A stretch of 64,000 nt of DNA. Origin: Symbiodinium sp. CCMP2592. Its lineage: Eukaryota; Sar; Dinophyceae; Suessiales; Symbiodiniaceae. Both the position numbers and the translations under genes were made by a program. The notes below the pieces were generated by a model. It did not search any database. It had not been told where the DNA came from and saw only the letters and a program-made list of their open reading frames with translations. Of this stretch, positions 7,089 through 54,090 are shown piece by piece. Within the stretch, counting starts at the first letter, position 1, and each line of letters starts with the position of its first letter. Location of the stretch: assembly GCA_905221615.1 (NCBI GenBank), contig CAJNDT010003979.1, forward strand, positions 508,501-572,500, in the 5' to 3' direction.

Positions 7089-7137
7089 GGTATGGGTGGT
7101 CCTTCGCTGATGGAGTTGTCAACCGCGTTAGTTAGAT

Positions 7138-31126: not shown

Positions 31127-31180
31127 CTTCTGGGCTCCTGAAAAGACGACGCTTAGTGAGCACTCCCACTCCCGCGCAAC

Positions 31181-34722: not shown

Positions 34723-35514
34723 CTTATATTATATACCCTATAATATATAAACCCTGACATAAACCCTATCCCTACTCCCCGAAAACAACCCAATAATCTG
34801 CCTTGAGGCCAAAGCTGTGGAAGCCGTGGTGCTGATGGCTCCCAGTGCAGTTCGAAAGGGTTCGTAGATTCGTGATGCAGCAACATAGGGGTATAGTGTC
34901 CTTCTAGCTTGGGATTATCAGCAGATACGTGGACTTCCCGATTTTAGGCACGAAATGTCGTGGAATTCTGCATGCAGGATGTTCTATATAGATGCATGTG
35001 CACTCTAGTGAAACCTCGGTTGCTGATGGCTCCCTGTACCTCCTGGTCTTCCTGGCTAGATTGGGTTTGAGGCCTCTGAGCTCCCGGGGAACATTAGGGC
35101 GCCAGTCCTCCGTGGCAGGGCGGACAGTGGTTGGATGGCTTCGACTTTACGCCTTGCGTGGTGAAGGCTGGGCAGAGGGCTTTCAATCCAAAATGGTGCG
35201 GACTGTTGTTTTGTGCAGGGCGAGCTGTCGCTGGTGGATGATGGTTTGTAAGACCATACATTTCGCATGTGCAGCTGGCTAGTTTGAGCTGTCCTTTGTG
35301 TTGTGGTTGTATTATAATTGTTGGCAATCATGGCCTTTGCCAGGGCTGCGGTTCCTGGTCCGACGAGCTGGAATGTGGGTCAGGCACACCTTTTTGCACT
35401 TGGAATTATAATCAGTCTTGAAAGCAGATCGCTGGTGACTGCATCTATGCCAGTTTGTTTGCATTCCTGCAGAATTTTGATCCGGAAGGTGTGTTCGAGT
35501 GTTCCTAGACTAGG

Positions 35515-35880
35515 GATCCAATGGCTGCAGCGAGCAGCTTCCAAGCTAGGGACTTCCAGTGGGTGGCACAGTTGCCGGTCCTCTGGGAAAACAACCGTGC
35601 CTTCCGTGAACGGTCTTTGAATGGCCAGTCGCTGTTGCGTGGGATTCACCAGCCCGGGCATGGAGACCGCGAAGTCGTGCTTGGCAACATTCAGTGCTGC
35701 AAGTTGAATGGCGAGGTGTTGAAAGTCGTCCTGAAACTTATGGGTGACGAAGGGTGCATTTTTGTAGCCAAAGTTTACCTGCTTCATGCAGCTGCATTGG
35801 AGTTTCATAGCAACTCTGGATATCCGGAAGCCGCCTCTTTGGGCGCGGTGGCTCATTCGGACGGCTGGGGCTTGAAACGC
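35515..35880 (+). CDS. Gene A exon 1: N-terminal globular domain
   Basis: The frame reads DPMAAASSFQARDFQWVAQL, then RERSLNGQSLLRGIHQPGHG, then DREVVLGNIQCCKLNGEVLK and a beta-like VVLKLM...VAKVYLLHAAALEF. I recall the S-L-N-G-Q-x-L-x-R-G and REIVLGN-type motif from the N-terminal part of large dinoflagellate repeat-family proteins. The true 5' end is not identified; an ATG at 35329 in another frame is a possible earlier exon. The 3' splice boundary lies between 35830 and 35890. Confidence 0.6.
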
Positions 35881-36025
35881 ATGCTGAGCTTCTTGAAGCG
35901 CAAATGGATGAGGGGTCAGACACCTCGTGTATCTCGATTGTGTCCAGAATGTTTGCGTTTCTTGATGTGGTTTGTGGGTGTATTTGGTTTGCAAACCTCG
36001 CTTCCTTGGTCTGTCTGTGGATAAG

Positions 36026-36100
36026 GACAGACTGATTCGTGCATTGGTTGCTGAGTTCCAGCGGGCCTACGAGACTCTCAGGGCTGAAGCTTTTCTGAAG
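36026..36100 (+). CDS. Gene A exon: 25-codon helical segment
   Basis: DRLIRALVAEFQRAYETLRA then EAFLK, exactly 25 codons, bounded by ATAAG on the left and GAAG|ATTC on the right. A charged helix that fits a coiled coil. The donor is not GT, which would fit the AG-repeat type of dinoflagellate intron in which cut sites slide by one base. Confidence 0.5.
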
Positions 36101-36171
36101 ATTCAAGCAACATGTTGCATGTGCAGTCTAGAGCTTAAGATTCTTAATTGGAGGTTTAGTGGTCTGTTGAG

Positions 36172-36543
36172 GCTGTTGGCGATCGCATAGCGCGGGCTCT
36201 CAGAGCTCGAGGGGACGATGATGACACCGATGATCCAGATGGAGCCCTTGATGTGGACTCCGACCAGTGCCGTGCCCCTGCACCGGCACTGGCCGAGGTT
36301 TTCGAAGCGCCCCCGCCAGCCCCCGCAGCCGTCGAGGAGCCAGTGGCCACGGCAGCAGATGTCGTGCTTCCGGCCCCGGCCAGCGAGGTGCCGCAGGACG
36401 GGGCACCAGCAGAGACTGAGGATGAAGAGAAGGCCAAGGATGCGATGCAGGATCGGCCACCGTCCCAGGAAGACTTGATAGCGCAACTCAGAATTGCGGA
36501 GCTGAAGCTCGAGGCCAAACGCTTGCAGCTGGGCTTTGTTTCA
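36172..36543 (+). CDS. Gene A exon: acidic Ala/Pro-rich linker and helix
   Basis: After a TTGAG acceptor the frame gives AVGDRIARALRARGDDDDTD, a Pro/Ala-rich stretch (APPPAPAAVEEPVA), an acidic part (ETEDEEKAKDA) and a helix IAQLRIAELKLEAKRLQLGF. The stop at 36547-36549 is probably intronic. A low-complexity linker between domains. Confidence 0.55.
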
Positions 36544-36741
36544 CGGTGAAGTAGAGATGCCATGACCCATAAACATTTCGTCAGCTCACGATTTAGCATT
36601 CGAGGATGGCCATAGAGCGGAAGCGTGCTGTGAAGCAGTTTGCCAAGAGCCTGCCACGAGGAATTCCGAGATTTTTCTTTTGATTCATACATGCAGTGAT
36701 ACAGCCTATCATGTCCATGCAGGGACATTTGTCATGCATAG

Positions 36742-37889
36742 TTGTGGATTTCGGAGGACCGATCGCTGTGGATTCAGATGATGAGGCAAACCCTTCACCC
36801 CCGGTCAAGTCTGCTGCATTGCTTCCGACCTCCGCGGCAAATCCGGATGCTTTGGAGACCCAGCCTTTCGAGATGGACACTCAGACGGTGCAAGATGTCC
36901 TGACTAGGTTGGACCAGCCCGTGCCATCGCCCCCTGCCAAGACCTTTGCTGAGCTTCAGACTTTGGTCCTGAGCCCCCAGAACACTACGTCGCCGGTTGC
37001 GTCGCCTTTGGTGCCGCCAGCCGAAACGGAGACCCCGAGTCCCCGAGGTGTTCCTGTGGCTGAAATCACGCCGGTGAAGACTTATGCCAGTCGCGACGAT
37101 CAGCTTCAAGTGAAGGGCGCCAACGAGGACGAGAAGAAGGCCAGAGCGGCTGAGAAGGAGGCACAAAAGGCTGAGAAAGCTACTCGTGGGAGAGGCCGGG
37201 GTGGCCGTGGCAGAGGCCGCGGTAATGCGCGGAAGACGTCCCATGCCGCTGACGAGCTGCACCATGGCCAGGATGACGAGACCAAGGCAGAGGTTGCTGA
37301 TGCCGAGGCCTCGGGGAGTGCAGAGATGGAGAAGGGCAAGAAGAAGAAAGGGGGCCGACCCAGGAAGGATCAGCAAGACGAGTGTCCGCAGACCGAGACG
37401 GGCAAGAAGAACAAAGGGGGCCGACCCAGGAAGGATCAGCAAGACGAGTGTCCGGAGATTGAGACGGGCAATGGCAAGAACAAAGGGGGCCGACCCAGAA
37501 AGGATCAGCAAGACGAGTGTCCCGAGTCCGAGACGGGCAATGGCATGAACAAAGGGGGCCGACGCAAGAAGGATCAGCAAGACGAGTGTCCGGAGACCAC
37601 GGGCAAAGCTAAGAAAGCCAAAAAGGGAAATGCAGCAGCTGAAGCTGCCGATGCTCCAGCCTTGCGAGTTCGTGGCAAGAGATGCGCGGAAGTGGCTTCG
37701 CAGCCGAAGTCCAAGCGTGTGCCAGTGCCAGTGCAGACCCAAAGTGGCTATACGTGGCCCTTGACCTTTGCTCGCCGCTACCGCCCCCGTGGGGACAACT
37801 ACACCCAGAAGCTCTGGGAGGGATGTATTCTTGCATTCAAGAATGTGATCGTGTCCCACCTCGAACCGGGCTCGCAATCGGCCGCTCAG
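36742..37889 (+). CDS. Gene A exon: charged AT-hook-repeat region plus TFARRYRP domain
   Basis: One 382-codon exon after a GCATAG acceptor. It runs from VVDFGGPIAVDSDDEANPSP through a Pro/Thr-rich linker and an RG-rich patch (RGRGRGGRGRGRG). Four tandem units of 22-24 codons follow, each with KGGRPRKDQQDECP (the last has GRRKK). A basic stretch and a globular end, TFARRYRPRGDNYTQKLWEG, complete it. GRPRK is the core of the AT-hook, so minor-groove DNA binding is a fair inference. The TFARRYRP...LW...F segment is one I recall from many dinoflagellate proteins. The exon ends at CAG|GC, a GC donor. Confidence 0.75.
37342..37605 (+). repeat. Four coding tandem repeats of about 69 bp (AT-hook-like)
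   Basis: Units begin near 37350, 37413, 37482 and 37551, each encoding KGGRPRKDQQDECP plus a variable ETG linker. Length differences are whole codons (GK against GNGK), so the frame is kept. Confidence 0.9.
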
Positions 37890-38050
37890 GCCGGATTTTT
37901 CGTTGGGCAACTACTTTGGGATGTGTGTTTTTAGATCGGTTCAGTGAGCTCGAAACATTATATGGGTTACCTCTTGTTCCTGGTGTATTAATGATCATCT
38001 ATAGATTTACATCCATAAACTCTTGTTTTCATCTGTACACAAGATCTAAT

Positions 38051-38106
38051 ACCCTAAACCGTATAAACCCTAAACCCTAAACCCTAAACTAAACTAAAAA
38101 ACCCTA
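38051..38106. repeat. Interstitial telomere-type repeat, C-rich strand
   Basis: AAACCCTAAACCCTAAACCC and degenerate neighbours, inside the GC-AG intron 37890-38126. (CCCTAAA)n is the plant- and dinoflagellate-type telomere repeat. Confidence 0.9.
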
Positions 38107-38126
38107 CACTCCTCGGCCCTTTGCAG

Positions 38127-38224
38127 TCCGACTTCTTCGATTTTGCGAAGCAGTTCATCCCGAACGATGAGAAAGTTTCCACTCGAGTTGCAATGTTCAA
38201 GAGCTGCTCTTTGGCAGCTGCTAG
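38127..38224 (+). CDS. Gene A exon: continuation of TFARRYRP domain
   Basis: After TTTGCAG the frame reads SDFFDFAKQFIPNDEKVSTR and VAMFKSCSLAAAR. It joins in phase 0 to the previous exon (...GSQSAAQ) across a 237-nt GC-AG intron. It ends at GCTAG|GTTTGT, a GT donor. The joined reading keeps an aromatic helical pattern. Confidence 0.65.
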
Positions 38225-38728
38225 GTTTGTAGAGACGCTCGAGCAAGCCTGAGCCTGGGCCCTTGATTCGTCCTAGTGGATCGATGTATATCATTTTAGC
38301 TACAATAAGCAGTTTAAGTGCACAAAAGTTTCATCCTGTGTACGGGCTTTCTGCTTGAGCTGCTAGAAACGAGGCCGCTCGATTTGCATCCATAGGATGA
38401 TGCTGCAACGGGCCAGTTGGGGTCCATGCTGTCTGGTAGTATTAATGCGCTACCGGGGAAGAGCCTTAAGGGCTCGCCAGGGGTGCTTCGATCAATGCTA
38501 GCGCTTGTGTGCTTTCAGACTGCATGCTGGCTTTCTACACAATTCGTGACTGCTGTGCGGCCTCTGCTCAGAGTCCACGACCACGGCTATGGATACCGTC
38601 TGAAGCAAAATAACTCTTGCAACAGTCGTTGTGTGACCAGTGCATGCAGATTGAAGCTTTGGGACTGCCAGATTTCTACCATACAATCAAGCTTCTAAAT
38701 TCTTAAGTACGACTCTCCCTGTGGCCAG

Positions 38729-38824
38729 GTGAAGAACTTCTTTCGCCGCAAGAGTGCCCAGACTCGCTTGCTCAGTGCAGCTGCTTCAAAGCGCCAGCAG
38801 GCAATCAGCAGCCAGCCTCGCTAG
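38729..38824 (+). CDS. Gene A candidate exon: basic helix
   Basis: After GGCCAG the frame gives VKNFFRRKSAQTRLLSAAAS and KRQQAISSQPR. It is basic and helical and fits the style of the flanking exons. The phase relation to its neighbours is not established. Confidence 0.4.
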   Translation: MKNFFRRKSAQTRLLSAAASKRQQAISSQPR

Positions 38825-39010
38825 TTTATGTGTCGCTTGCATACAAGAGCTTGTCATGTTTGTATCGTTTGCAACGCCGGGCAACACTCATGCTGCACTT
38901 GGTCCAAGGGCTGCTTCTTGTGGTCTGGGCTACAATACTGACAGTGGGGAGTATGAGATGGTCGACTTAAGATTGATCGATAGTTTCGGAGAGTTCTGAA
39001 TTCCTGAAAG

Positions 39011-39099
39011 TAGCTGGGCTCGCCTCCCCGGTTCCTGACATGGTGAAGCGCAGCTTCGAAGAAGTGGCGATCAGCTTGATTCGCCTCGGATCACCCAAG
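39011..39099 (+). CDS. Gene A candidate exon
   Basis: Between GAAAG and CAAG|GTCTTT the frame gives VAGLASPVPDMVKRSFEEVA then ISLIRLGSPK. GT donor. It looks like protein; its position before the methyltransferase-like exons suggests the same gene. Confidence 0.45.
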
Positions 39100-39840
39100 G
39101 TCTTTGGGCGGGCATTGTAGGTTTCATATTGTTTTTCGATTGTTTTCAATTCAGTTGTGGTGCAACTTTCCATACATTGTCCTGGCTTTGAGGTGGGGTC
39201 TATGTTTCTCTAGAGCTGCTTCGGAAGTTCAGTGTCGGGTGGTTCGGGTTCAATAGCCTGGTTGAAACCTCCTGCTGAAATCCGAAGCATTTCTCACTGC
39301 ATTAGGTTAACTTATAAACCTGTATGAGTTTGGGGTATACACAATATGACAAAGTTAGCATTTCTTCGTGGCCAATCATATCATGATTATTGGGGTGCTT
39401 CAAAGAATCAGAAACTCCTCTCTGCCCCAGGTTTTCGTCCTTTGCATTTTGCTGCTGTTATGGAACGAAAGCATTGACTTCGACAAGGACGGCTGCCCTT
39501 CTACTTGGGTTAGCTTGGGGTGTTCTAAATAATTCTTTACAGTTTGAGGTTAATAGAGGGTTTCGGGATAGGAGTCTCAAGGTTTTGTTGCCAGGATCTA
39601 GGCAAATCCTTGATGCTATATAGCAATGTTATATTGTGTGCTGCAAGTATGCCTCGTTTGGACCCCAGCCTTGAGGCTCCGGTCTAGCTTAGCAGAAATC
39701 ACAATAAGGGCATGGTTTTGGATTACATTCGTCACCTATACGGTTAATACCCTGTAATCTGATTGTTCTAAGGTCTAGTTGTGCAGCACACCCCTGGCAC
39801 GCACACAAACACACTTAGGCTTGGAATGCAATACTACCCT

Positions 39841-39920
39841 GTCTCTCTCTCTCTCTCTCTCTCTCGGTTTAGGGTTTAGGGTTTAGGGTCTCTCTCTCTC
39901 TCTCTCTCTCTGTCTCTCGT
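39841..39920. repeat. (CT)n with embedded TTTAGGG repeat
   Basis: Two CT tracts (39842-39864 and 39889-39917) flank GGTTTAGGGTTTAGGGTTTA-GGG at 39866-39888. The telomere-type repeat is in the opposite orientation to that at 38051-38106. Confidence 0.93.
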
Positions 39921-40056
39921 TCTCACATAAGTGCCACAAGAAATCCTGGAACTCTGATTCCAAGCAAACCTGGGTTCTACCCAAGTACCTACCACACCTC
40001 CCAGATAAACCCACCATAAATTCCCCAATCGATATACAATCCCACACATTCGCCAG

Positions 40057-40225
40057 GATATCGATCTCGCGGAGCTCTTCAGTGGATCCGGAACCCTCTC
40101 CAAGGAGTTCTATTATGAGGGTAAGGAGGTGGTCGCATGTGATTTGAAATATGGCCGGGGCATGGATATATGTCAATCCTCTGGATTCGGGTGGCTTGCA
40201 TTGAAACTAGCTTATGAGTCTGTGC
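40057..40225 (+). CDS. Gene A exon: methyltransferase-like motif I
   Basis: After CGCCAG the frame gives DIDLAELFSGSGTLSKEFYY, then EGKEVVACDLKYGRGMDI, then SSGFGWLALKLAYES. E-L-F-S-G-S-G-x-L-S is the glycine loop (motif I) of C5 DNA methyltransferase-type folds. VVACDL has the acidic residue expected at the end of the next strand (motif II). I recall the same E-L-F-S/A-G-x-G ... D-I-x-Y-G ... M-D-I series in dinoflagellate repeat proteins. The catalytic PCQ motif is not visible, so activity is doubtful. The donor is unresolved (GC donor at 40226 would fit phase). Confidence 0.72.
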
Positions 40226-40305
40226 TACATCTTGCCACCAGTGTAGTATGTCTTACTGGAGCCCAGGACATTCTGTTCAGCGGTTCTATGTGGTCGGCCG
40301 AATAG

Positions 40306-40437
40306 CTGTGTATGGCTTGGTGTTCTTTGCAGCTCCTGGGTTTCTATCTCCCGCCCGTCAACAAGAAGATCATATGCTAATCCCGAAGGCTTTGAAGGCT
40401 ACGAGAAGGTGAGAACGGCTAACCTGATGGCCGCAAG
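40306..40437 (+). CDS. Gene A exon: CSSWV motif
   Basis: After AATAG the frame gives VWLGVLCSSWVSISRPSTRR then SYANPEGFEGYEKVRTANLM and AAR. The C-S-S-W-V ... T-x-R-S ... P-x-G ... A-N motif is one I recall as directly following the ELFSGSG exon in related dinoflagellate proteins. The Cys lies where a methyltransferase would have PCQ. It ends at CAAG|GC, another GC donor, and joins with the next exon as AG|G (Arg). Confidence 0.7.
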
Positions 40438-40506
40438 GCCCGGTTCGAAAAAGATCCCCTGACTTAACTACACTTCAAACTTAATGCTCCGGGGTCCAAT
40501 ATTCAG

Positions 40507-40624
40507 GTCGGCCTTTCTATGCCTTCTGGCTGCAGCTTTGGGTCAATGGTGGGTGATCGAGCAGCCCAGAACATCCTTGCTTTTGCAGAGTCAACGCTTC
40601 AAATGGCTTCGGGACAAACTACAG
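40507..40624 (+). CDS. Gene A exon: WVIEQP motif
   Basis: After ATTCAG the frame gives SAFLCLLAAALGQWWVIEQP then RTSLLLQSQRFKWLRDKLQ, ending at CAG|GTAACT. (V/I)-E-Q-P sits where C5 methyltransferases have the ENV motif VI. Joining 40306-40437 and 40507-40624 removes a 69-nt GC-AG intron and keeps the frame. All three motif exons are in the order expected for a split methyltransferase-like domain. Confidence 0.72.
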
Positions 40625-40927
40625 GTAACTTGTGCCATTGGCATTACCGAATGCTTGGTCTTGGGGGTCAAGCTTGCTGCCTAGGACCTACAATTCCTGA
40701 GTTCGGATAGCTTCGGCCCAGGTGTATAGGAGGCCTTCGTGAAGGTTCTCTTCGGAAATTTTCTTCAGGTGATTTATAGTCCTTAACCGGAAGCCGGAAG
40801 CCCGAATATCACGTGTTCAAATTCCTGAAAACTACCCTCTTATGTGGTGTAATAACCCCGCAATGTGTGACAAGCCTGGGTCGACCCTCTTTAAAGCGAA
40901 AACCACCTCAACCCACGAAACTAGGCT

Positions 40928-41009
40928 AGTAATATGGTACTATATCGTATTATCATGAGAGCTTCAAAATTGAAACTCTCATGATAATACGATATAGTAC
41001 TATATTACT
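40928..41009. repeat. 82-bp near-perfect palindrome
   Basis: AGTAATATGGTACTATATCG ... and its reverse complement meet at a centre between 40968 and 40969. Only positions 40936/41001 (G opposite T) and 40962/40975 (C opposite A) fail to pair. Lies in the intron after the WVIEQP exon. It would form a hairpin in DNA or RNA. Confidence 0.95.
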
Positions 41010-41094
41010 GTTGCGACGACTCTGAAAGTAGCACAAGTGGGGGCGCAGGTTAAGGACGCAGATGGGTCATCGGTTTTCGGAGTCAGAACTATAC

Positions 41095-41173
41095 CACCAC
41101 TATCCACCACTACTATACTATACTACTAGAGTACTACAACTACTACAACAACTACTATACTACTATAGTACTA

Positions 41174-41248
<75 letters not shown>

Positions 41249-41300
41249 CACTACTACCACTACTACCACCACTGCGACGACTACTATTATACTACCACCA
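41095..41300. repeat. (TAC)n microsatellite
   Basis: About 75 bp of uninterrupted TAC repeats near 41175-41250 with degenerate TACTA/CCACTA flanks. The Leu-rich frame across it is a product of the repeat. Confidence 0.95.
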
Positions 41301-41619
41301 CTGCTGCTACTGAGTACTCTACTTATACCGCTAACTACTATACTACTACGCTACTATATATGTTATATATAAACTATGCTACTGTAATAATGCTAATAGA
41401 AGAATCAACAACAGTTTGTGCTGCTCATCCGAGCGAGGCCTCCGTTATTAGCCGTTGTGCACCGCCACCAACAATGCCAGTACCACAACCACCGCCAACA
41501 ACAGACTCCAACACCAAAACCAACTGCAACACTACTAGCAACGCCACCACCGCCGCCACCAACACCAACACCAAGACCAAGGCCCCAAGGCCCCAACCCC
41601 AACCCCAACCCCAATGCAG

Positions 41620-41836
41620 CCGAGGTTTATCGTCTGGATCTGTGGATGGCTTTGTTCGGCTCCAGAACGCCAAAGCGCAGCAGCCTCTGGAGCAACTCGA
41701 GGGTCATTAGTCTTTTCTTCAGCAGTAGAAAGCTGCAACGCAGCTTACAAGATCCTACCTTCAAGACTACAAAGCGGTATGTCAACGAGAAGGGGAAGCA
41801 GTGCTTCGAGGGCAATCGCAACTTGACAGACACTGG
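41620..41836 (+). CDS. Gene A exon: FGSRTPK / TTKRY domain
   Basis: After AATGCAG the frame gives EVYRLDLWMALFGSRTPKRS, SLWSNSRVISLFFSS, then TTKRYVNEKGKQCFEGNRNL and TDTG. The series L-F-G-S-x-(T/S)-P-K ... T-T-K-R-Y-x-x-x-x-G-K-x-x-F-x-G-N is one I recall downstream of the IEQP motif in related proteins. Preceded by CCAACCCCAACCCC, a pyrimidine-rich tract. The last codon is completed from the next exon. Confidence 0.7.
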
Positions 41837-41870
41837 GATTCTCGGCCGATTTGGGTGCTTTCTAGGAATT

Positions 41871-41942
41871 TTCTGTTCAGGTTTCTGTGTTTCCAAGACT
41901 AGAATCTTCTGTTCAGGTTTCTGTGTTTCCAAGACTAGAATC
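41871..41942. repeat. 36-bp intronic tandem duplication
   Basis: TTCTGTTCAGGTTTCTGTGT plus TTCCAAGACTAGAATC occurs twice in tandem inside the GA-AG intron 41837-41951. Confidence 0.95.
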
Positions 41943-41951
41943 TTCTCTAAG

Positions 41952-42198
41952 GATCTACACTCGCCAATTTGCGAGGAGAGCATTCGAGGTTATGCAGCTG
42001 GGAGAGTCTGTTCTACCGAAGTCTGAATTCTTTGTGGGAGACAAGAAGCCAAACCAAGCTATATTGCTTTTCCAAGCAATGGATGACAGCGATAATTGTG
42101 AGGATGCCGGTTTGATCGCAGTCGCACATTACCTTCGAGGATGCAAAGCACTGTGTATCCCAGAGGAATGGAGAGCAGTACTTCCTAAGAGGCTGTAG
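41952..42198 (+). CDS. Gene A last exon (IYTRQFAR ... stop)
   Basis: The exon starts GATCTACACTCG. With the GG left from the previous exon it gives G-IYTRQFARRAFEVMQL, continues with VGDKKPNQAILLFQ and GLIAVAHYLRGCKALCIPEE-WRAVLPKRL and stops at TAG (42196-42198). Joining needs a 115-nt intron with GA at the donor (41837) and AG at the acceptor (41950-41951). The Y-x-x-x-F-A motif follows G-N in the related proteins I recall, which supports the join. Taken as the C-terminus of gene A. Confidence 0.65.
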
Positions 42199-42384
42199 TG
42201 TAGTGAGCTTCGTGATTGCATATGATCGAGGTAAAACCGATCGAGTCTGTGAGTGTGCATTCAAGGGCATACATGCATGTGCATTTACACACCAACACGG
42301 CACTTTGTTCCGGTGTTCAGTGGTCGCAGCGATTTCTCTTCAGGTGCTAGCTGAACTTCGGCAGACTTCTATAGTCGGCTCGCA

Positions 42385-42876
42385 ATGATCGACACCCGTC
42401 CCGAAAAAGTCCTTTGGGCCAAAGAGGTTCTGAGACACCTGTCCACCCGGACCCTAGATGAACAAATCGATGCGGTGACCGGGCCCCTGGAATCCATTCG
42501 ACACGGACTCCAGGCTTTGCTATCAGTTCTCCCCATCTATGCTGAGGGTGCCCTTCGCTCTGCTAAACTGTTGGCCGATGTCTTGACAACGGTCAGGTGC
42601 ACAGTGGAGTCCGGCGGTTTGAAGGGGGACGAGGAACTACAAATTATCGAGATGGGGCTTCCAACCTATCCACAAGAGCGCTACGAACCCATGTCCCAAA
42701 GAATCCAACTTCGTGGGCCGGCTATGATTCGCAGGGAGATCTCGCAAGGACTTGATGCCTGGGATTCTTGTGCAACAATTCTGTGGTGCCCTGCCGTTAG
42801 TGCTTGTCACTGGCACATGTCAATCCTCATGACGGCATTCAAAGATGTTCTAGCCTTCGTGGAGAGTGTGCAGTGA
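42385..42876 (+). CDS. 163-codon ORF between genes A and B, unknown
   Basis: MIDTRPEKVLWAKEVLRHLS leads into a helical, protein-like frame (LLSVLPIYAEGALRSAKLLA, EMGLPTYPQERYEPMSQRIQ, ILMTAFKDVLAFVESVQ) and a TGA stop. It is on the same strand as both genes. It may be an early exon of gene B or a small separate gene. No family recognised. Confidence 0.5.
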   Translation: MIDTRPEKVLWAKEVLRHLSTRTLDEQIDAVTGPLESIRHGLQALLSVLPIYAEGALRSAKLLADVLTTVRCTVESGGLKGDEELQIIEMGLPTYPQERYEPMSQRIQLRGPAMIRREISQGLDAWDSCATILWCPAVSACHWHMSILMTAFKDVLAFVESVQ

Positions 42877-43149
42877 TGTTGGACAGGATCCTATCCATTA
42901 TAAGTTAAGCAGAAGCCGGATTTTGTGAGGGCAGGTCGGATTCTGCTCGCTGCCTGATGCAAAACGAAAGATCCGATTATTTAGCTGTTGCTCTTTTGTT
43001 GTTCTTGGGGTGTTTTGGGCTGGCTTCTGGGGCCTTTGGTTTTACGGATTCGATATATAGGGGTCAAACATATTCCGTTTTGGGGGTCTGTGTTTCTGGG
43101 TTTTGTAAATCCTTTTGGCGGTGATTGTTCCTGGTGTGCTTTTTTTCAG

Positions 43150-43545
43150 GTTTGCACCTGAAAAAGCGTAAAACGGCCCAAAAGAGCGTAAATCTCTGCA
43201 ACGCCCAAATCCCAGAAACCACCCCCAAAAAGCGTAAAGACCATAAACTTCCTCCAAAACCCGGGGCCCGAAGCGCAGAAGAGCGTAAAATCCCGCAAGA
43301 ATCCGTAAAATGGCCACGGCAAAGGAGCGTAATTATCCGTACCGCACCTAAGCACCCCAAAAAGACCATAAAAACCCAGCCCAAAGGACCATAAATACCC
43401 GGCCACCCCAAAAGGCCATAAAACCCAAGGCCAAAAGACCATAAATCCCAAACAAACCCACGCAGAAAGGGACATAAAAAAGCGTAGGAAAAGCGTAGGA
43501 AAGCCGTAGAAAGGCCATAAAAAACCGTAAACCCTATACCGTAAT
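43150..43545. repeat. CGTAAA/CATAAA motif cluster between genes A and B
   Basis: More than 20 occurrences of AAAGAGCGTAAA, AAAGACCATAAA, AAAACCGTAAA and close variants in 400 bp, with CCCAAA-rich spacers and no regular period. Similar short clusters occur at 34664-34722 and 51985-52060. Confidence 0.8.
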
Positions 43546-43616
43546 TCTAGACCAGGGAGCAGGCCACAGCTTACCGCTCTCGGTGCCCACGTCGTCCGGA
43601 TCTGCAGGCTTTTGAG

Positions 43617-43813
43617 TGGGCCCAAGTGTGGAAATGCAACGGGAGGCTAAAACCTTCCTTTCCAAAGCGTGGTCTGGGAGCTCTTTGACTTCTGGAGCAC
43701 AAAACATGTTTGCTGCCTTCATCAAGCAAGAGCAAGCATTACCTGATGACGTGGATTCACTGAGACAGAGGGTTGAGGACAGTCTCATGTGCACTCTGTT
43801 CTGTTCCGAATGA
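43617..43813 (+). CDS. Gene B exon 1 (candidate)
   Basis: After TTTTGAG the frame gives GPSVEMQREAKTFLSKAWSG, SSLTSGAQNMFAAFIKQEQA and LPDDVDSLRQRVEDSLMCTL. It has good protein character, acidic and helical. The frame ends at 43813; a GT donor near 43798 would end the exon earlier. Confidence 0.55.
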
Positions 43814-44099
43814 TGATCTTTTTTGGTGATCTATATACCAGGACCTTCGGCGACAGCTGGGTATGGGCTCGGCTGTCAAAGAGGTGCCTGCCTTGGGCTC
43901 CCATTCTTAGTTGGCTTCTGTTGCTTACAAGAGTTTTGAGGAGCCGTGCGGGGATGCAAAGCAGCCTGGGCAAATGAAGGAGCCCAGATTCCTAGCACAA
44001 ACCCAATGCATTCCGGACATATGCTGATATCAGGAGACCGGATTGGACAAGGAGGCCGCCTGGTCGGTCTGGGTTTTCCTTTTGATTCGTTCATGGTAA

Positions 44100-44122
44100 T
44101 GTGGTAATGTCTCTCTCTCGCT

Positions 44123-44169
<47 letters not shown>

Positions 44170-44960
44170 CTTGCTTCTGTCTCTGTTGCAGGCACCGAAG
44201 ACTACCCTCCCCAGAACTACCGTCTGCTCCTCAAGTCATGAAACTTCGACTGGATCCTAGTTCTGCTTGTGGAGCACTTCAGGAGCCACGCCCGGACACA
44301 TTGCAGGCCACACAAGTGGAGGCCTGAACCATCGAAGCCAGTAAAGCAACAAGGTGCTGTGCCCTAAAATAGTGTATCTCTGAGGAGACCCAAGAGAATG
44401 ACAGCCAGGCCCGGATCCTCGCTACTGAAGCCACAGTGTCTGGGTTTTCTAAATCAAACTTCGGGTGCCCGTGACTTAATTTCAGTCTCCGCCAGGCACC
44501 GGAGTTTGCAGCTGCCGAACCTACCGTCTGCTCCTCGAACTACTCACTGCCTGATTGCCTGTGTTGTGTTCCACCAACCCAAAAGGAGCCAGCTTCGACG
44601 CAGGCATTGCAGCCTGCACAGGAGCCCTAGCAAACCCATACCGCGCAGCAGACAGCATTGTGGTGTTCTGTCAGGAGACCCGACCGAATGACATCCAGGA
44701 GACCTTCGACAATGACCTCCAGGAGACCCAACCGGATGACATCCAGGATGCCCTTCCCTCACGCTTTCTCCCTCTCTCCCTCCTCTCTCTTTCGAAGTAG
44801 AAGGAGTGGATTCAAATAGCACCCTTCTCTCTCTCTCTCTCTCTCTCGCTCCCTTTCTCTCTTTCTCGCTCTCTCTCTGTCTGCTGTGTACCTGAGCAGG
44901 AACAGAAGCCTTCCATCCCCAAGACTGCCGTGTGCTCCTCAATATTTGGCTTGCTTGGAC
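44100..44960 (+). CDS. Gene B: repeated small exons (VCSS and QETxPNDI repeats)
   Basis: Two short coding motifs recur. AP(K/E)...TVCSS follows a GCAG acceptor at about 44191 and 44494, with a third version (KTAVCSS) at about 44905. (Q/E)ETQPDDIQ-type acidic repeats lie at 44377-44402 and 44670-44745. Each VCSS copy follows or lies near a CT tract. This looks like tandem duplication of exon plus intron, giving an acidic, repeat-bearing linker. Exact exon ends are not resolved. Confidence 0.45.
44110..44169. repeat. (CT)n microsatellite
   Basis: About 55 bp of CT repeats directly upstream of a TTGCAG acceptor-like site. Confidence 0.95.
44820..44882. repeat. (CT)n microsatellite
   Basis: Interrupted CT tract with the same position relative to the third VCSS-type motif. 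Confidence 0.93.
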
Positions 44961-46262
44961 AATGAACCCTATCTGTAGCCTAAACCCAATGTTCCTTAAA
45001 ATACTTGTATAGACGATCCCCACAATACAGCACAGCAGTTGTTCCTTTGCTGTCCCCGAACTAAACCTGCTTCCGAAACTGGGGTTATCAGTATATCCTA
45101 TATGACCCAATCACCCAACCGCTTTGTTCTCCCCGCCTTATTCTCGGTCGCAGCCCATCCAAGAACCTCAAGGGTCCATAGGGTATGTTGTCGGGTCAGC
45201 TATATGTCGGGGCCCCTGCTACTAGTTAAGACGACTAGGGTGCTCTTTGGTATCGAAACAGAAGTCTTGCTTCAGGGTTCGATAGGGGGCTTGGGTTTGG
45301 GTATATAAGTATCTTGTTAGGCATCGGGGGTGGGGTGTCAACTATGTACATAGTTCCCGACTTACAAGAGTAGCAAGCCCGGTTCCATCATGGACCCTCC
45401 CCTACCCACAAACCTTTCCCAAATATCCTGAAGCCAAGCGACCCTGAAACTACACGGCACGATAATTAAGACAGGCCCAATCGTTCCATTGTCATCCCGC
45501 ATAGTACCTTGAGGCTTCATCCGTGGGGCACAGCGCAATGGGGCATGCCAACAGCTTTGTCGCGCACCAGGAGACGATGGTTTGCAAATCGGTTGTTGAA
45601 TTCACTTGTTTTCATACCATATATATATTATAGGCCTAGGCTTGTATCCAGTCGAAGCAAAGCAACCCTATAGTGGCAGCACAGTTGGGAAGGGTCACTT
45701 CTGTTATCAACAAAGAAATCAAGCCTTAACCCTATAAGCTCTTGGAGAAAATTGTTTTTAGCTTATTTCGAAAAATATACTGATGTCTACCAAAGGCCAA
45801 TGCTGAAGACCAACCCTTTAATTTGATGAGGACTCCTCGCAACTGCCGCCCGAGATCATGTTCAAGTCGCCGAGCCGATCCCCTTCCAGCCCACCTAAGA
45901 ACATCGAGGCATGGGCACTTCATATCTAAGAGGCCCCGATTGCTTCTTAGCCGTTGTGCATGACAGGCGATGATGGATGGTGCACCTCTCGAGTCTCTGC
46001 CAGCCCCAACGACTGCTGATGTCTCAGTTTTAGACAAGTGTTGTAGTGATGGTTGATGATATTAGATACAGATCGATCACTTAGGCACGCGAAAAGCAAC
46101 TGTACGAGATCATTGCTCACCTGCAAAGAACGCAGCCGGGCACACCAAGTATGTTTGCACCCGCTTCTGTCCGGAGCAGTGTGCTTCAGCAGCAAATGTG
46201 TTTCAATCGTTCCCAGCTTTGAGCTTAATCTGCCTTTTCCATTCCAAGCTTAGGATCCATCA
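44961..46262. other. Gene B intron region, no exon identified
   Basis: Short frames only. A TATATATATTATA stretch lies near 45618. The minus strand has a 101-codon frame (45732-46037) that I do not trust. Confidence 0.4.
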
Positions 46263-46263
46263 G

Positions 46264-46634
46264 TGAAGTCGCGGCCGGAGCGGCTGGACTCTGTGACTTC
46301 CCTTGCCACATCCCTGAGTGACGGGGTCCCCGCACCCAAGGATTTGCCACCGATGCGGGCCCCAGCCCCTGCTACCCCTGTGTCTGACGGCACAGGCACG
46401 GAAACGAAGGAGAGTGCTGCGCCTACCGGGCCTACCGATGACGAGGATGACTGTGAAAGTCCGGAAGAAAAAAAACTCTACGCAAGGATGGAGGCAAAGA
46501 TCCGTCGAATGTGTACCCCGAGCCCGACCACCGGAAAGACCACGGCAAGCCCACAGTTGCTGGCGGAGTGGAAAAGCAAGGGGTACACCCGTACCCAACT
46601 CATGCAGTTGATGATCGAGGCCAACGGCGACAAG
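46264..46634 (+). CDS. Gene B exon: acidic linker and RMCTPSPTTGK domain
   Basis: After CATCAG the frame gives a Ser/Pro/Thr linker, an acidic patch (DDEDDCESPEEKK), then LYARMEAKIRRMCTPSPTTG, a basic KTTASPQLLAEWKSKGYTRT and QLMQLMIEANGDK. The R-R-x-C-x-P-x-x-x-G-K ... W ... L-x-x-x-x-x-x-x-G motif is one I recall from dinoflagellate repeat-family proteins, followed there too by a W-Y-(T/S)-E-(E/Q)-x-M segment. The best join uses a GA donor at 46635. Confidence 0.68.
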
Positions 46635-46640
46635 GATCGG

Positions 46641-46684
46641 AATCAGAGAGAGAGAGAGAGAGAGAGGGACACAGAGAGAGAGAC

Positions 46685-46725
<41 letters not shown>

Positions 46726-46741
46726 GAGGGACGGAGGGAGG
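46641..46741. repeat. (GA)n microsatellite in GA-AG intron
   Basis: About 100 bp of GAGAGA with CA and GG interruptions, filling most of the 116-nt intron 46635-46750. Confidence 0.95.
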
Positions 46742-46750
46742 GTAACAGAG

Positions 46751-46867
46751 AAGACTTGCCGTGAGGCGCAGTTCCAAACGAAACTGGAGTCGTGGCGCCA
46801 GACGGAGCAGTTCAGGAAAGTCCAGACGAGGGGAGGCTGGTACTCGGAGCAGGACATGAAGAAGCCG
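46751..46867 (+). CDS. Gene B exon: GGWYSEQDMKKP segment
   Basis: Exactly 39 codons between ACAGAG and CCG|GTGAGC: KTCREAQFQTKLESWRQTEQ then FRKVQTRGGWYSEQDMKKP. The aromatic GGWYSEQDMKK motif continues the preceding exon in the order I recall for this family. Phase 0 on both sides, GT donor. Confidence 0.7.
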
Positions 46868-46987
46868 GTGAGCGAAGGAGGATGTGCCTATAGTGCGTGT
46901 TTCTGCTGCATCGATAGTTACGAATGACTATACTATACGTGTGTGGAGGAATGGAATGCTTCCTATGTAGCCACGCTTCCTATGTAG

Positions 46988-47043
46988 CTAAGGAAAAAAG
47001 TGCAGAAGGTGAAGGACTTCTGCGAGAAGCACGGCTTCGTTCG
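46988..47043 (+). CDS. Gene B mini-exon (LRKKVQKVKDFCEKHGFVR)
   Basis: 56 nt between TGTAG and CG|GTGGCT. Encodes a helix ending KDFCEKHGFVR. The 2-nt remainder is completed by the first G of the next exon (CG|G, Arg), supporting both joins. Confidence 0.62.
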
Positions 47044-47597
47044 GTGGCTTGCTTCAATGACCGAGCATTTCTGCAATCCTTAATAAGCCCCTCAATCTGT
47101 GGATTACCACGGAACCCTAAGGCCCAAAAGCTTAAAACATCCCAAGCCAATGGAGCCGGAGTTTGGGTGTTACAAGTTTGTAAGTACCTTTGTCTTCAGT
47201 CCTTCAGGGGATCCCTCGAGTGTTATGAAATAAAACTGTTTGTAGTGTTATAATGCTAACTGGGGTAAAGTTGACAAAGGGCTTTTTCGGAGATCATTCG
47301 GTGCCTCACAGCAAACATGTTACCCGTGCTAGTGTATCGTAGGAATATAATTATATTCGGGCTTCTATATTGCATGGGTTGTATGGGGTCTTCAGGGGCT
47401 TAACCCCCAAACCGTACCCCGAAATGTTTCCTTTAAGAAGTCCGATGACTGATAGTCTTCAATCCAATATCCGGAATCCTTGAAAATTTCCCTTCACATA
47501 ACACCCGAAGAAACCCAGAAGCCCAATCAAAGCCCGCTTGACAGACACCCCCTATCATCCTTATCCCAAAAACAATCAACCTTATTCTCCCTACCAG

Positions 47598-47818
47598 GAA
47601 CAACAAGTACGATGAGGACGAGAAGGAATACTGGGTGGACTTCCGGACGGAGGGCAGCCGAGGGACCAACGAGATTGATGCTGTCCGGGAGAAGAAGATG
47701 GCTGACACCACCGGTGCCGAAGGGTTTGTTACGGGGGCTGTGGGCGACGGGCCGCTTCCAGAACTTCCGATTCAAGGGGGCCTTGCTCCAGGGATCGAGA
47801 AGGCCTGCTACTGCTTGC
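47598..47818 (+). CDS. Gene B exon: NNKYDEDEKEYWVDFRTEG
   Basis: After ACCAG the frame gives NNKYDEDEKEYWVDFRTEGS, RGTNEIDAVREKKMADTTG and a Gly/Pro-rich end. (R/N)-x-K-Y-D-x-x-x-x-x-Y-W-V is recalled as the next element in the family. The right boundary is uncertain; a GA donor at 47819 or a GC donor at 47803 are the options. Confidence 0.65.
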
Positions 47819-47855
47819 GGATGTTCTAAACAACTTGTGTGTGACTGGGTTTCAG

Positions 47856-48140
47856 AAACTCTATGCAGGAGGACCAGGGCTTGGCTAAGATCATGGACGA
47901 TGCCTTTCAGACCCGTAAGAACCTTGACAAACTTGTTGCGAAGCTCAAGAAAGACAAAGGCAACGCGGGGACCCTTTGTTGCATAAATGCAAACCCAAGC
48001 CGCGGATCCAGGAAGCTTTCTGCCACAAACCAGCAGCCCAGGGACATCGCCAGCATGGAGGAGTGCATCTCCAAACTGGGATCGCTTTACGACGATCTTG
48101 CCGGAATCCAGGCCGAGGTGAAAGTGAACGGTATGGATGA
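47856..48140 (+). CDS. Gene B exon: Lys-rich helical segment
   Basis: After TTTCAG the frame gives NSMQEDQGLAKIMDDAFQTR, KNLDKLVAKLKKDKGNAG and MEECISKLGSLYDDLAGIQA. Helical and charged throughout. The 3' end is not fixed; the frame runs on to 48201. Confidence 0.58.
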
Positions 48141-48207
48141 CAAGTTTCTTTGTCGCAATACCGGGATGTTGGTCCTAAATTCGGGATATATGTGTTTCTA
48201 GATTCAG

Positions 48208-48278
48208 CTCAATTAGCAAGGCTGAAGCAGCAGCTGGCGGAAAAGACCAAAGCCGTGAAGCGCCAGTGCAGCTCTTAG
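48208..48278 (+). CDS. Gene B exon: short coiled-coil
   Basis: After GATTCAG the frame gives QLARLKQQLAEKTKAVKRQC-SS and then a stop that is probably intronic. Heptad-like leucines. Confidence 0.5.
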
Positions 48279-48569
48279 ATTGCTCAAAGTCGTTTTCAAA
48301 TCCTCAACAGCAGAACTTGTATGTGGTCACAACAGCTAGCTGAGGTGTGTTCTGGCGGTGTCGTGTGAGATCAAGAACAAGTATCCCGAGGAATCTGGTA
48401 GATCCTTTTTATACTGTTTGTATTATTGCCGCTCCCCGTATATAAGGCTTTGGGGCTCAGGGTTTCTAGGGTTCAGTGGCTTTACTGGGTTTGTAATTTC
48501 GGGAGTCAAATTACTATGGTCCGTTCACGTGGTTGCATGCTAGACCGATGCTATATGCTTTTCAATCAG

Positions 48570-48657
48570 GTCGATCAAGCGCAAGGAGCCGCCGCCAAGC
48601 ACCGAGGAGCCCCAGTCCAAAAGGAAGCCGAAAAGCAAGACAAAACCCAGCAAGAAG
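48570..48657 (+). CDS. Gene B exon: Lys/Pro-rich basic segment
   Basis: After CAATCAG one frame gives SIKRKEPPPSTEEPQSKRKP then KSKTKPSKK. KRKP and KKPS-type clusters look like a nuclear localisation signal. A second frame is also open, so the reading is not certain. Confidence 0.5.
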
Positions 48658-48805
48658 TGAGCCTGAGCCTCTAGAGTTTTGAAAGCGCCGTCGGTGTGAT
48701 TTTATGTCACATTGACATGATCTTCTCAGTAGATTGTCTTTGCAAACTCGAGCACGGGGCTTTGCTCAAACCGGAAAATCTCCGTGCTTCTTATTGCCAT
48801 TCCTG

Positions 48806-49012
48806 CAGATCCGGCAGCACTTCGAAGTTTTTGGTGTAATGTGCAAACAAATACGCATGCCAGGTGAGGCTTGCTTCCGCGATGCCACTCACAAAGCGTG
48901 CGACTACGTGCGCAGCTATGGCAAAGGTGCTGGGGTCCTAGCTATCGGGGAGTCGGCGATCATTCGTTCTTACAGATTCAGAACTTCGGTCATGAAAGTG
49001 CTCATCAGGAAA
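48806..49012 (+). CDS. Gene B exon candidate before the HGDGG domain
   Basis: After CTGCAG the frame gives IRQHFEVFGVMCKQIRMPGE, ACFRDATHKACDYVRSYGKG and AGVLAIGESAIIRSYRF. It has protein character and lies just before the large central exon. Confidence 0.48.
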
Positions 49013-49444
49013 TGAGTTCCCCCAAACCCCTATCATGTGTAGCTACAACCCTAGTACAAAGTAACCATTACCCCAAAACCTAAATCGTGTCTAATAGCTA
49101 CAATCCTAGTGTCGGAATACACAATCCAAGACTGGAAGTTGTATTGTATGGCTCAATCAATGAACCACCAATCTTAAAGCAAAGACGCTACGAACCCGTT
49201 TCAGCTGCATTCCGAGGAGTTAGAGGCCCTTGCAAAAACAAGGTCTATGCTGGTATTGTACGAAACCCAACAACTGAAACCTTTCATACAATACAAAGCT
49301 TAAGGCAAGCTTCAAATCTGTTCCCTCTTGAAAGCCAGATCAGAGTCACATCCTTGTAAACGTTGCATCAATATCTTCTGGAGACGAAGCCTTCCCAACG
49401 TCCCAGGTTACCAAATCCAAAGAACAACACCCCTTGTAATGCAG

Positions 49445-50732
49445 TAGACGATCCGTTGCTCGCCCAGGTTCCAGCGAAGGATATCGTGAACAGAGCGAAA
49501 GCCTCCGCAAAAGATGGAGATGTTCTGTGTATTACGGGCAAATCTGTGGCGGCTGTTTCTGCGGGCAACGAGGAACGTGGTTTGTATGGGGCTTTGTTGG
49601 AAACGAGGCTGCTTGTAAACATTCCGTGGTCCTATGTGAAGATCGGAGAAGGTTGTCTCAGCGAGCACCCCTGTTTCAAGCCTAAAGACATCATTCATGC
49701 CCTTGCTGAATTGGGGAAGTTTGATACTGTGATTGGGACTCCGGTTGACGCTTCGGCCGCTGTGCTAGCTGATTTCTGGGAGAACTTCACAAGGCAGTTT
49801 GAGCACCCGGTCACTGCAGATATTCAATCTGGAAAGCTGAATCCTGCTTTTTTGGTGCCCATCAATATTCATGGAGATGGTGGAAGAACTTATAAGAAGT
49901 CTGAACTCATGGTATTGCAGCTTCAATCTGCCATCGGGGGTGGCTCCAGGCTGAGTGGGCAAAAGCGGAAGCTGCCTTCGGGAGCTGAAGAAGCCGACTA
50001 CAACCTGAGTGGGCATAGTCTTGCCACTCGATATTTGATGAGTTGTCTCCATAAGAGGCATTACAGTGATGACCCTACACCCCTGCTTGAGCTCCTGGGC
50101 TGTGTTTCGGACTGGCTTGGGGACTTGTACGACAACGGCTACGAGTACCGAGGCCAAGTTTGGAGGTTTGTTCCAATAGGCCTGAAAGGCGACTTGGTGT
50201 TTCATGCCAAGGCTGCTAGCCTAGAACGGTCGTTCAGTCGTGTTCGCAAACGGAAGGAGACTCCTAAATCGAAGCCTTTACAGGGCTGCTGCCCGTGGTG
50301 TTTAGCAGGAACCCCAAACGTGGCTTTTGAGTGTTTTGACAAAGAGGCTCCCTGGATACAAACTTCGGGGGCTCGGAACCCAGTACCTTGGACAGAGACC
50401 CCTTCGATCCTGAGATCGATCCCGGTCAGCGCGGACCAGCCGTCTTTCTTGAAACCCGATTTATTTCACATTTTGCAAATGGGAGCCTACAAAGAATTCG
50501 CGGCGAGTGGACTCTGCCTACTGTTGCCTTTCTGTGGCGGTAGCTCTCAGGACGAGAATATGGCTACGATGAACCAGTACCTTGTGAACTATGTCAAAGA
50601 AACGAAGTCCCCGCTTCACATGCCAAAGCTCTCGCTGGAAATGATTGGTGCCAAGACCCCCACCGTTTATGCTTCTGGGGGCTGGAACAAAGGCCAAGAT
50701 TCAGTGGTTTTGATGGGCTTCGTTGAGTGGCT
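49445..50732 (+). CDS. Gene B central exon: HGDGG domain
   Basis: The largest exon, about 429 codons. It contains LVNIPWSYVKIGEGCLSEHP, PKDIIHALAELGKFDTVIG, VLADFWENFTRQFEHPVTA, the hallmark PINIHGDGGRTYKKSELMVL, a serine/basic loop, HKRHYSDDPTPLLELLGCVS, a Cys pair (CCPWC), PDLFHILQMGAYKEFAASGL and GGWNKGQDSVVLMGFVEW. The H-(G/A)-D-(E/G)-G motif followed by D-x-F-H is, as I recall, among the most repeated sequences in dinoflagellate predicted proteomes; no function is assigned to it. The metal-ligand-like H/D residues suggest a nuclease or transposase fold, by inference only. Confidence 0.75.
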
Positions 50733-51028
50733 GATTGGTGGCTTGGTTATCCTTTGTACAGGTTTTGTTGATATTAATATTATACCTCCTAAACCCCATG
50801 AGCCCCTGCTTTCCACTGTTTGGAAACAGTATGCTAGAAGCCTTGACAATATAAAAGCCATATATAGAAAACCCTCGTTTTACATCGTTTCCAGAACCGA
50901 ACCAGAAAACATTTACCCTTGTATAAGCCCTGAAATCGACCTAAACTACCCCCTATATAAGCCCTTAAATCGTCCCATAAGCCCAACCCCTGTGAACCCT
51001 CGCTCAAAACCGTCGCTTCCAAAATCAG

Positions 51029-51479
51029 ACGAGGCAAGCTGCCTGTCGATGCTTTTCAAAAACCCTGGAAATACCTGGCTGAGGGCTGCAGATCAATTGC
51101 GTGTGCGATGAAGATTTTGCATTCGGCCGCTGCTTTTATGCCTAAAAGCAGTGCCCTGGAGGCAGCCGAGGCTGGATATAGATTCTTGCTCTGCTACGCG
51201 AACTTGGTCAAATGGTCGGTTTCCCAAAAGAAACTTCTGTTCAACCTCATACCCAAACTGCACTATCTGCATCACGTGCTGGTGGAACTGCGGGCGACGG
51301 GTTTGAACGACCGAATTGCCCGTGTTTTCAACCCGATGTGCAACTGCACATCACAGTGCGAAGATTTTATTGGCCATATCGCACGGCTGAGCCGTCGTGT
51401 AACCCCAAAGCACCCGCATACACGTGTTCTGCGACGTTATCAGGCAGCCCTTGCTGATAAAATGGGATTGCTGAAGTGA
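51029..51479 (+). CDS. Gene B last exon: PKLHYLHH domain
   Basis: After AAAATCAG the frame gives RGKLPVDAFQKPWKYLAEGC, ACAMKILHSAAAFMPK, LLFNLIPKLHYLHHVLVELR, then NPMCNCTSQCEDFIGHIARL-SRR and ends ADKMGLLK with TGA at 51477-51479. Joined to ...GFVEW-L by a 296-nt intron with GA donor (50733) and AG acceptor. The P-K-x-H-x-L-x-H ... N-P ... E-D-F-(I/V)-G ... R-L-S-R-R series is recalled as the C-terminus of the same family. The frame in front of the ATG at 51108 is also open, so that ATG is not the start. Confidence 0.75.
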
Positions 51480-52119: not shown

Positions 52120-52608
52120 GGAGACGCATCCAGACACACAAGATACAAGCACAAGCACATACACACACAAAGAAACACAACCGCACAAACCCGCACACAC
52201 AGGCACAAACACAAACAGACACACACACACACAGGCACAAACACACAAACAAACAAACAAACCCCCAAACACACAAACAAACAAGCAAGCAAACACAAAC
52301 AGACACACACACAAACAAGCGCACACACACACACACAAACGCAAACACTAAGACACACACACACACATCAACGCAAACACATGCTCAACCGCAAACACAA
52401 ACACACACACACACACAAACAAACAGACACACACACAGAGACACAGAGATACACAGACACACGGACACACAGACACACAGATACACAGACGCACAGACAC
52501 ACAGAGACACAGACACGGACACGGACACAGACACACGCACGCACACAAACACACAGACACACAAAAAAAAAAACACGCACTCAAACACCACACACACACA
52601 CACACACG

Positions 52609-52640
<32 letters not shown>

Positions 52641-52889
52641 AACACAAAGACCAACACCAACACCAAACACACACACACACAAAAGCACAAACACAAGAAT
52701 AAAAACACAAGAACACAAACACACTCACACACACATACAAACACTCACAGGCAAACACAAATGCAAACACACACACACACAGACAAACAAACAAACAAGC
52801 AAACACACACACACACACACACAAACAAACAAGCACACACCGACACACACACACACACACCCACACACACACACCACACACACACACAC

Positions 52890-52920
<31 letters not shown>

Positions 52921-53205
52921 CACCACACACACACAGACAAACACAAACAAAAACACACACACAAACACAAACACAAACACACACACAAACACAAACACAC
53001 AAACACACACACACACACACCACACACACCACACACACCACACACACCACACACACACACACCACACACACCACACACACACACACACACCATACACACC
53101 ACACACACTCACACGCACTCACACGCACTCACACGCACACACACGCACACACACACACACACGCACACGCACACACACATGCACACGCACACGCACACAC
53201 GCACA

Positions 53206-53256
<51 letters not shown>

Positions 53257-53357
53257 ACCCACAACACACCCACACACACACACGCACACACGCACAGAGA
53301 CACACACACACACACACACACCCGCACACGCACACACACACACCCACGACACCCACG

Positions 53358-53390
<33 letters not shown>

Positions 53391-53772
53391 CACACACACG
53401 CACACGCACACACACACACACGCACACACACGGAGACACAGACGGACACAGAGACACGCGCACACACACACAGAGACATCACACACACACACAACACACA
53501 CACACAGACACACGCACACACACACACACACACACCACACGCACACGCACACGCAAACTCACATGCACAATCACAGGCACAGGCGGCACACTCACACGAC
53601 CACGCGCACCCACTCACCAACCTACCCCTACCCACCCACGCACCCACCCGCCCACCCACCCACCCACACACACCCACACGCACGTTCGCATGTAAACACA
53701 CCCACACGCACGCAAACCCATGTACACACAAAAGCAAACAAACACACACACACACACACACGCACACACAAG

Positions 53773-53806
<34 letters not shown>

Positions 53807-54090
53807 CAAACACACAAGCAAGCAAACACACAAGCAAGCAAACACACACACACACACACACGCTCAACACGCACCCACACACACACACAGACACACACAC
53901 ACACACACCACACACACCACACACACCACACACACCACACACAACACACACACACACACGCTCAACACGCACCCACACACACACGCAGACACACACAGAC
54001 ACACGCACACACACACACACACACACCATTTAATCACCCACCCACCCACGCACGCACACACGCACCCGGGCACACACACACACAAAAGCC
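52120..54090. repeat. CA-rich minisatellite/microsatellite block, about 2 kb
   Basis: Nearly all of the plus strand is built from CA, with CAAA, CAGA, CACC, CACG and CATG variants. T and G are rare. Long Thr/His frames (up to 550 codons) on the plus strand and Val/Cys frames on the minus strand follow from the repeat and should not be annotated as proteins. Confidence 0.97.

Follow-up and report, generated by a model that had tools for sequence, protein, structure and literature searches.

The window, by which we mean the whole stretch of 64,000 nucleotides of Symbiodinium sp. CCMP2592 that was analysed, carries two neighbouring, intron-rich genes on the plus strand: gene A, which is AT-hook-like and methyltransferase-like, and gene B, which has a transposase-type order of motifs. 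The exon-like segments of a preliminary description, made from the letters of this DNA, proved real, and 12 of its 12 quoted motifs lie on the plus strand in the claimed order, but its figure of about 20 exons was too low. Spliced alignment, in which introns could begin with GT, GC or GA and end with AG, placed two predicted proteins of strain CCMP2592 (NCBI) with 0 mismatches, P0009 (711 amino acids) on 6 exons at 35521–38249 and P0005 (642 amino acids) on 24 exons at 43634–48657, both on one contig of 667,846 bases. The exon count is clearly above 20, and B begins near 43634. The 28 introns of the two models begin with GT (11), GA (9) or GC (8), and a G directly follows 27 of them, some borders being ambiguous; such a donor mix with G after the intron is the usual dinoflagellate pattern. 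The stops claimed for A and B were borne out at 42196–42198 and 51477–51479, respectively. The features were as follows.

35521–42198, plus strand: gene A, AT-hook-like and methyltransferase-like, 6 annotated exons to 38249 and later exons by similarity
37329–37598, plus strand: four 69-base tandem repeats encoding KGGRPRK-type units
37764–37787, plus strand: TFARRYRP of A
40057–40624, plus strand: methyltransferase-like core of A (ELFSGSG, CSSWV, WVIEQP), from a match to phrog_757 and alignment to a distant family
40072–40092, plus strand: ELFSGSG of A
40328–40342, plus strand: CSSWV of A, SSWV being 40331–40342 and C read in the open frame 40247–40462
40550–40567, plus strand: WVIEQP of A
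41625–41702, plus strand: FGSRTPK segment, aligning with WWMCHYGSASPKR of P0012
41655–41675, plus strand: FGSRTPK of A
41766–41780, plus strand: TTKRY of A
43634–51479, plus strand: gene B, N-terminal half annotated (P0005) at 43634–48657, putative catalytic half at 49444–50742 and about 51036–51476
46506–46538, plus strand: RMCTPSPTTGK, N-terminal half of B
46832–46864, plus strand: GGWYSEQDMKK, N-terminal half of B
47605–47637, plus strand: KYDEDEKEYWV, N-terminal half of B
49870–49884, plus strand: HGDGG of B, with the first candidate catalytic Asp at 49876–49878
50191–50193, plus strand: second candidate catalytic Asp (KGDLVF), an invariant alignment column
50290–50301, plus strand: CPWC, the C(2)C motif of B and a candidate zinc site
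50458–50469, plus strand: DLFH, the D(2)H motif of B
51252–51275, plus strand: PKLHYLHH, the H(3)H motif of B and a candidate zinc site
51360–51362, plus strand: candidate catalytic Glu of B (CEDFIG)

Relatives were collected in three protein searches, which returned 7, 3 and 4 proteins (13 different, P0001 to P0013). Scoring in each search was confined to the 8000 candidates with the most words in common, a relative having no exact 5-residue word in common would have been missed, and the 13 proteins are not an abundance measure. Similarity to P0011 and P0012 is the basis of A from CSSWV to 42198, and similarity to P0001–P0004 that of the catalytic half of B, both parts lying outside the two annotated models mapped here. 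A GT at 38175 is part of an exon in P0009 and serves as donor in P0008, which goes on via 38729–38776, 39431–39487 and 40057–40153 into ELFSGSG; the P0008 model then takes 40267–40409 in another frame, which counts against the CSSWV reading. P0005 ends at a TGA overlapping the donor-like GTGAGC at 48657–48662, which would be a true donor. In P0001–P0004 the N-terminal and catalytic halves of B are joined in a single protein, the last B segment of the window aligns unbroken with P0001 (Symbiodinium necroappetens) from 51036, and residues 65–933 of joined B are 100% covered by P0001 at 55% identity. Within the window, no other copies were found at E ≤ 1e-3, and up to E 5 the matches were all weak.

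A and B are a real, conserved pair. Both sets of motifs are carried by P0007 of S. necroappetens, which was picked as query for having both parts; a search with its residues 600–1599 returned four proteins, namely P0007 itself, P0011 (CCMP2592), P0012 (CCMP2456) and P0013 (S. microadriaticum), which form the distant family. A motifs are followed by B motifs in a single predicted protein in 4/4 of these, query included, although P0012 starts past the first A motifs and P0013 stops before H(3)H. The claim that A and B are linked in a fixed order held for the window and for all four distant-family proteins, from four strains or species; the search was limited to proteins of about 880–2800 amino acids and so favoured fused models. 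The surrounding DNA of P0001–P0004, P0006 and P0010 is outside this tally. Distant-family B is about 23–26% identical to window B (BLASTP), and the profiles of the two B families matched with a probability of 99.8 (E 1.5e-27, 330 columns). The A part of P0008 matched the distant family with a probability of 98.7 (E 2.7e-16), and TFARRYRP, as TFARRYR or TFARRYK, is common to P0007–P0011 and P0013.

P0008 represents a second copy of A, located on another CCMP2592 contig (1,010,178 bases). Its residues 951–1737 align to 35116–40409 of the window with two amino-acid differences, one internal and the other at the first of these residues; its residues 1–950, upstream of the A copy, are a different B-like protein, absent from the window. 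Recent movement, an allele, a segmental duplication or an assembly duplicate would each explain a near-identical A with another upstream neighbour.

The tandem KGGRPRK-type units of A are taken by us to be AT-hook-like; an AT-hook match for A was not obtained in Pfam. For the joined A exons, residues 25–136 matched phrog_757, a ‘DNA methyltransferase’ profile (E 9.6e-4, or E 0.0014 with one residue added), PF02086 matched one A exon at E 0.02, under the Pfam cut-off, and a sequence search of the PDB with A gave no relative. The distant family is 28–32% identical to window A in the methyltransferase-like domain, with the same motif order. C5 methyltransferases have catalytic Pro-Cys and Glu-Asn-Val motifs. 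Cys and Glu are kept as CSSWV and IEQP in the window and as MCSSF and VEQP in P0011 and P0012, with Pro and Asn-Val altered; we assume that these residues of A stand at the positions of the C5 methyltransferase Cys and Glu, in differing surroundings. We call A methyltransferase-like, on weak profile support. The introns of A also contain telomere-like CTAAACCC/TTTAGGG runs (38046–38089 and 39866–39890), and between two A segments there is a near-perfect 82-base palindrome (93%) at 40928–41009, followed by a long ACT repeat at 41109–41349. Viral relatives were not found. Phage TJE1 matched A by tblastn at E 0.09 off the annotated frame, and neither that frame nor the five open reading frames listed there looked methyltransferase-like, so the match was treated as noise; alignment patterns of B and A matched 18 and 33 stretches of viral contigs with 0 relatives among them, and for one exact A pattern there were no matches.

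In B, the motifs HGD, GD[L/W], C(2)C, D(2)H, H(3)H and ED occur in that order in P0001, P0012, P0008 and the window; P0002–P0004 end upstream of H(3)H. The order D..D..C(2)C..H(3)H..E is given as a transposase layout in PMC12730594. The D-D/D-C/C-H/H-E spacings are 87/19/217/19 in P0008, 105/33/222/29 in P0001 and 69/31/220/28 in P0012, the acidic residues being assigned by position in sequence; those of mouse RAG1 are 108/19/207/20, based on residues named in PMC4914335. A fuller motif pattern occurred in 0/1000 shuffles of each of P0001, P0012 and P0008, the pattern having been picked after inspection of these three, whose shuffle results are not independent because they are relatives. GGWYSEQDMKK and KYDEDEKEYWV of the N-terminal half are conserved, taking the forms GWYS..EMK and YD..EEYW in distant-family proteins. 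The B-like part of P0008 matched window B at E 4.7e-5 and P0012 at E 8.6e-6 (BLASTP without composition correction); P0001 did not match it at E 0.01 except over a short N-terminal stretch, and hhalign gave only a probability of 5.6 (E 0.0068). At the level of motifs, B shows a putative CACTA/Mirage/Chapaev/Transib/RAG1 transposase layout, in three divergent groups. The structure prediction proposed in the preliminary description was run, and the two AlphaFold models (9 sequences each; mean predicted local distance difference test score (pLDDT) 51.3 and 44.3, the scores around all three acidic residues being below 50) were too poor for comparison with the RNase H fold.

The surroundings of the pair were also surveyed. 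Shortly 3' of B lies a CA-rich tandem tract (52156–54084), and between A and B a protein-like open frame of 173 amino acids (42355–42876) without a Pfam match. Large direct repeats of about 90% identity, 19361–23416 and 54378–57864, flank the A–B region, and a second direct pair, 94.7% identical, occupies 1–4210 and 15312–19556. Tandem units of about 0.84 kb, 90–96% identical and sharing an open frame on the plus strand, fill 24838–28770; further tandem arrays have units of 400 bases (6994–8966) and 148 bases (62162–63086). At 31106–32290, 3 kb upstream of A, there is a single-exon frame of 377 amino acids with a spliced-leader-like sequence just before it (4 mismatches in 21, core 12/12), which we take to resemble the dinoflagellate spliced leader. 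Its HRD..H..R pattern presumably resembles that of 2-oxoglutarate dioxygenases, no match was found in Pfam or the PDB, and it is possibly a retrogene. Scans of the window with tRNA and Rfam models found nothing.

On balance we lean towards the explanation that a single lineage of dinoflagellate DNA transposons, or a descendant that lost its mobility recently, has A and B as its coding part. At motif level the pair would work like a CMCT/RAG1-type transposon, with no profile match to that family. B would be a DDE transposase that cuts and joins DNA, with metal ions held by two Asp and one Glu, and its C(2)C and H(3)H motifs, which lie after the second Asp and before the Glu, would hold a zinc. 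A would be held on AT-rich DNA through its AT-hook-like repeats, and its methyltransferase-like domain may put a base mark on the element (most likely) or on its target; such a mark could regulate excision or evade host silencing. The exons, the order of A before B in divergent relatives, the motif order of B and a weak profile match of A are observed; catalysis, zinc binding, methylation and mobility of the pair are what we infer. Tentatively, and with more doubt than conviction, we further propose a new dinoflagellate DNA transposon superfamily, distantly RAG1-like, in which the transposase has an AT-hook DNA methyltransferase of its own, as a paired gene or in fusion, and which puts a base mark on itself or its target during transposition. 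No paper describing the pair was noticed in PubMed Central, where most were judged from title or opening of the abstract, subscription papers and bioRxiv being largely outside that collection.

Several results weigh against a transposon. The exon with the first Asp (HGD) is not in 3/4 distant-family models, and a generic form of the motif pattern occurred in 41, 73 and 62 per 1000 shuffles of P0001, P0012 and P0008. P0007 is without the CSS[FW] and EQP motifs, and P0008, P0010, P0011 and a P0011/P0012 composite are without a methyltransferase profile match. Foldseek with both poor models gave no match at E ≤ 0.001, PDB sequence searches found no relative, and Pfam scans of the segments and relatives found no transposase or methyltransferase family at cut-off. 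The earlier suggestion of a methyltransferase-like partner with a possible nuclease or transposase survives in part, on the weak phrog_757 match for A and the motif order in B. KDZ transposons were rejected as a candidate, since Pfam scans that admitted hits up to E 5 contained no KDZ transposase; Pfam includes a KDZ model. Terminal repeats were not above control in a scan of 18-base arms starting with CA only: pairs of such arms numbered 2 and 10, against 1–5 in each of six control pairings, and the second region was about 6 times the length of the control. The 28 introns in the two annotated models are unusual for an active DNA transposon.

The same introns, the long open exons and the lack of ends in the CA-starting 18-base arm scan would suit a domesticated pair, that is, a transposase-derived gene and its neighbour that no longer move, stay together within an array of host genes and serve another role, for example in DNA marking. 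Expression as neighbours would fit the one-directional arrays in which dinoflagellate genes stand. We consider this unlikely, although well short of negligible, given that four further proteins or parts of the family lie on other CCMP2592 contigs (P0006, the A copy and the B-like part of P0008, and P0011) and that P0008 has a different neighbour upstream of its near-identical A. It is improbable that the pair is a prediction artefact, in which unrelated side-by-side genes have been merged elsewhere by gene finders. P0008 has the opposite order, a B-like part and then A, P0006 is a B fragment merged with PPR repeats, and the 4/4 result came from the length-restricted search; but the order is the same in the window and four proteins of four strains or species, and merging by a gene finder presupposes neighbouring genes. 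A retroelement with a DNA methyltransferase (DNMT), like SymbioLINE-Dnmt or SymbioDIRS-Dnmt3, shares the host group and a methyltransferase-like partner (PMC5890265) and is highly improbable here, as the introns are many while >90% of the Symbiodinium DNMTs of that source are in intronless genes, and as Pfam scans covering the window segments and relatives matched neither a reverse transcriptase nor PF00145.

If A and B do form a transposon, a mechanism is gained at once for two dinoflagellate gene families that no database names, and in these algae DNA transposons would join retrotransposons as carriers of DNA methyltransferases. Finding a RAG1-like catalytic layout in a dinoflagellate would have a bearing on how that group spread, and whether the methyltransferase-like part marks the element's own DNA would become directly testable.

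Among known systems, the CMCT clade (EnSpm/CACTA, Mirage, Chapaev, Transib, Plavaka, ESTA and Lanisha) and RAG1 share the order D..D..C(2)C..H(3-4)H..E with B, and the spacings of P0008 and P0001 are near those of mouse RAG1 (PMC4914335). B differs from them in an extra D(2)H motif and in having no Pfam transposase profile match, and the pair differs in its methyltransferase-like partner, A. CMCT elements end in inverted repeats, most of them CA..TG, and make target duplications of 2–5 base pairs; here the scan of CA-starting 18-base arms gave no such ends above control, and no target duplications were found. SymbioLINE-Dnmt and SymbioDIRS-Dnmt3 are Symbiodinium mobile elements that likewise carry a DNA methyltransferase; they have a reverse transcriptase, are mostly intronless and are recognised by PF00145, whereas the window pair, in the segments scanned, has none of these properties (PMC5890265). 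In fungal TET/JBP transposons (KDZ, Plavaka, EnSpm and others) a DNA transposase travels with an enzyme that modifies DNA bases, as B would with A in the window pair; there the partner is an oxygenase and the ends are defined, while here the partner is methyltransferase-like (PMC12730594). Both sorts of partnership exist, as these fungal transposons and the Symbiodinium DNMT retrotransposons illustrate.

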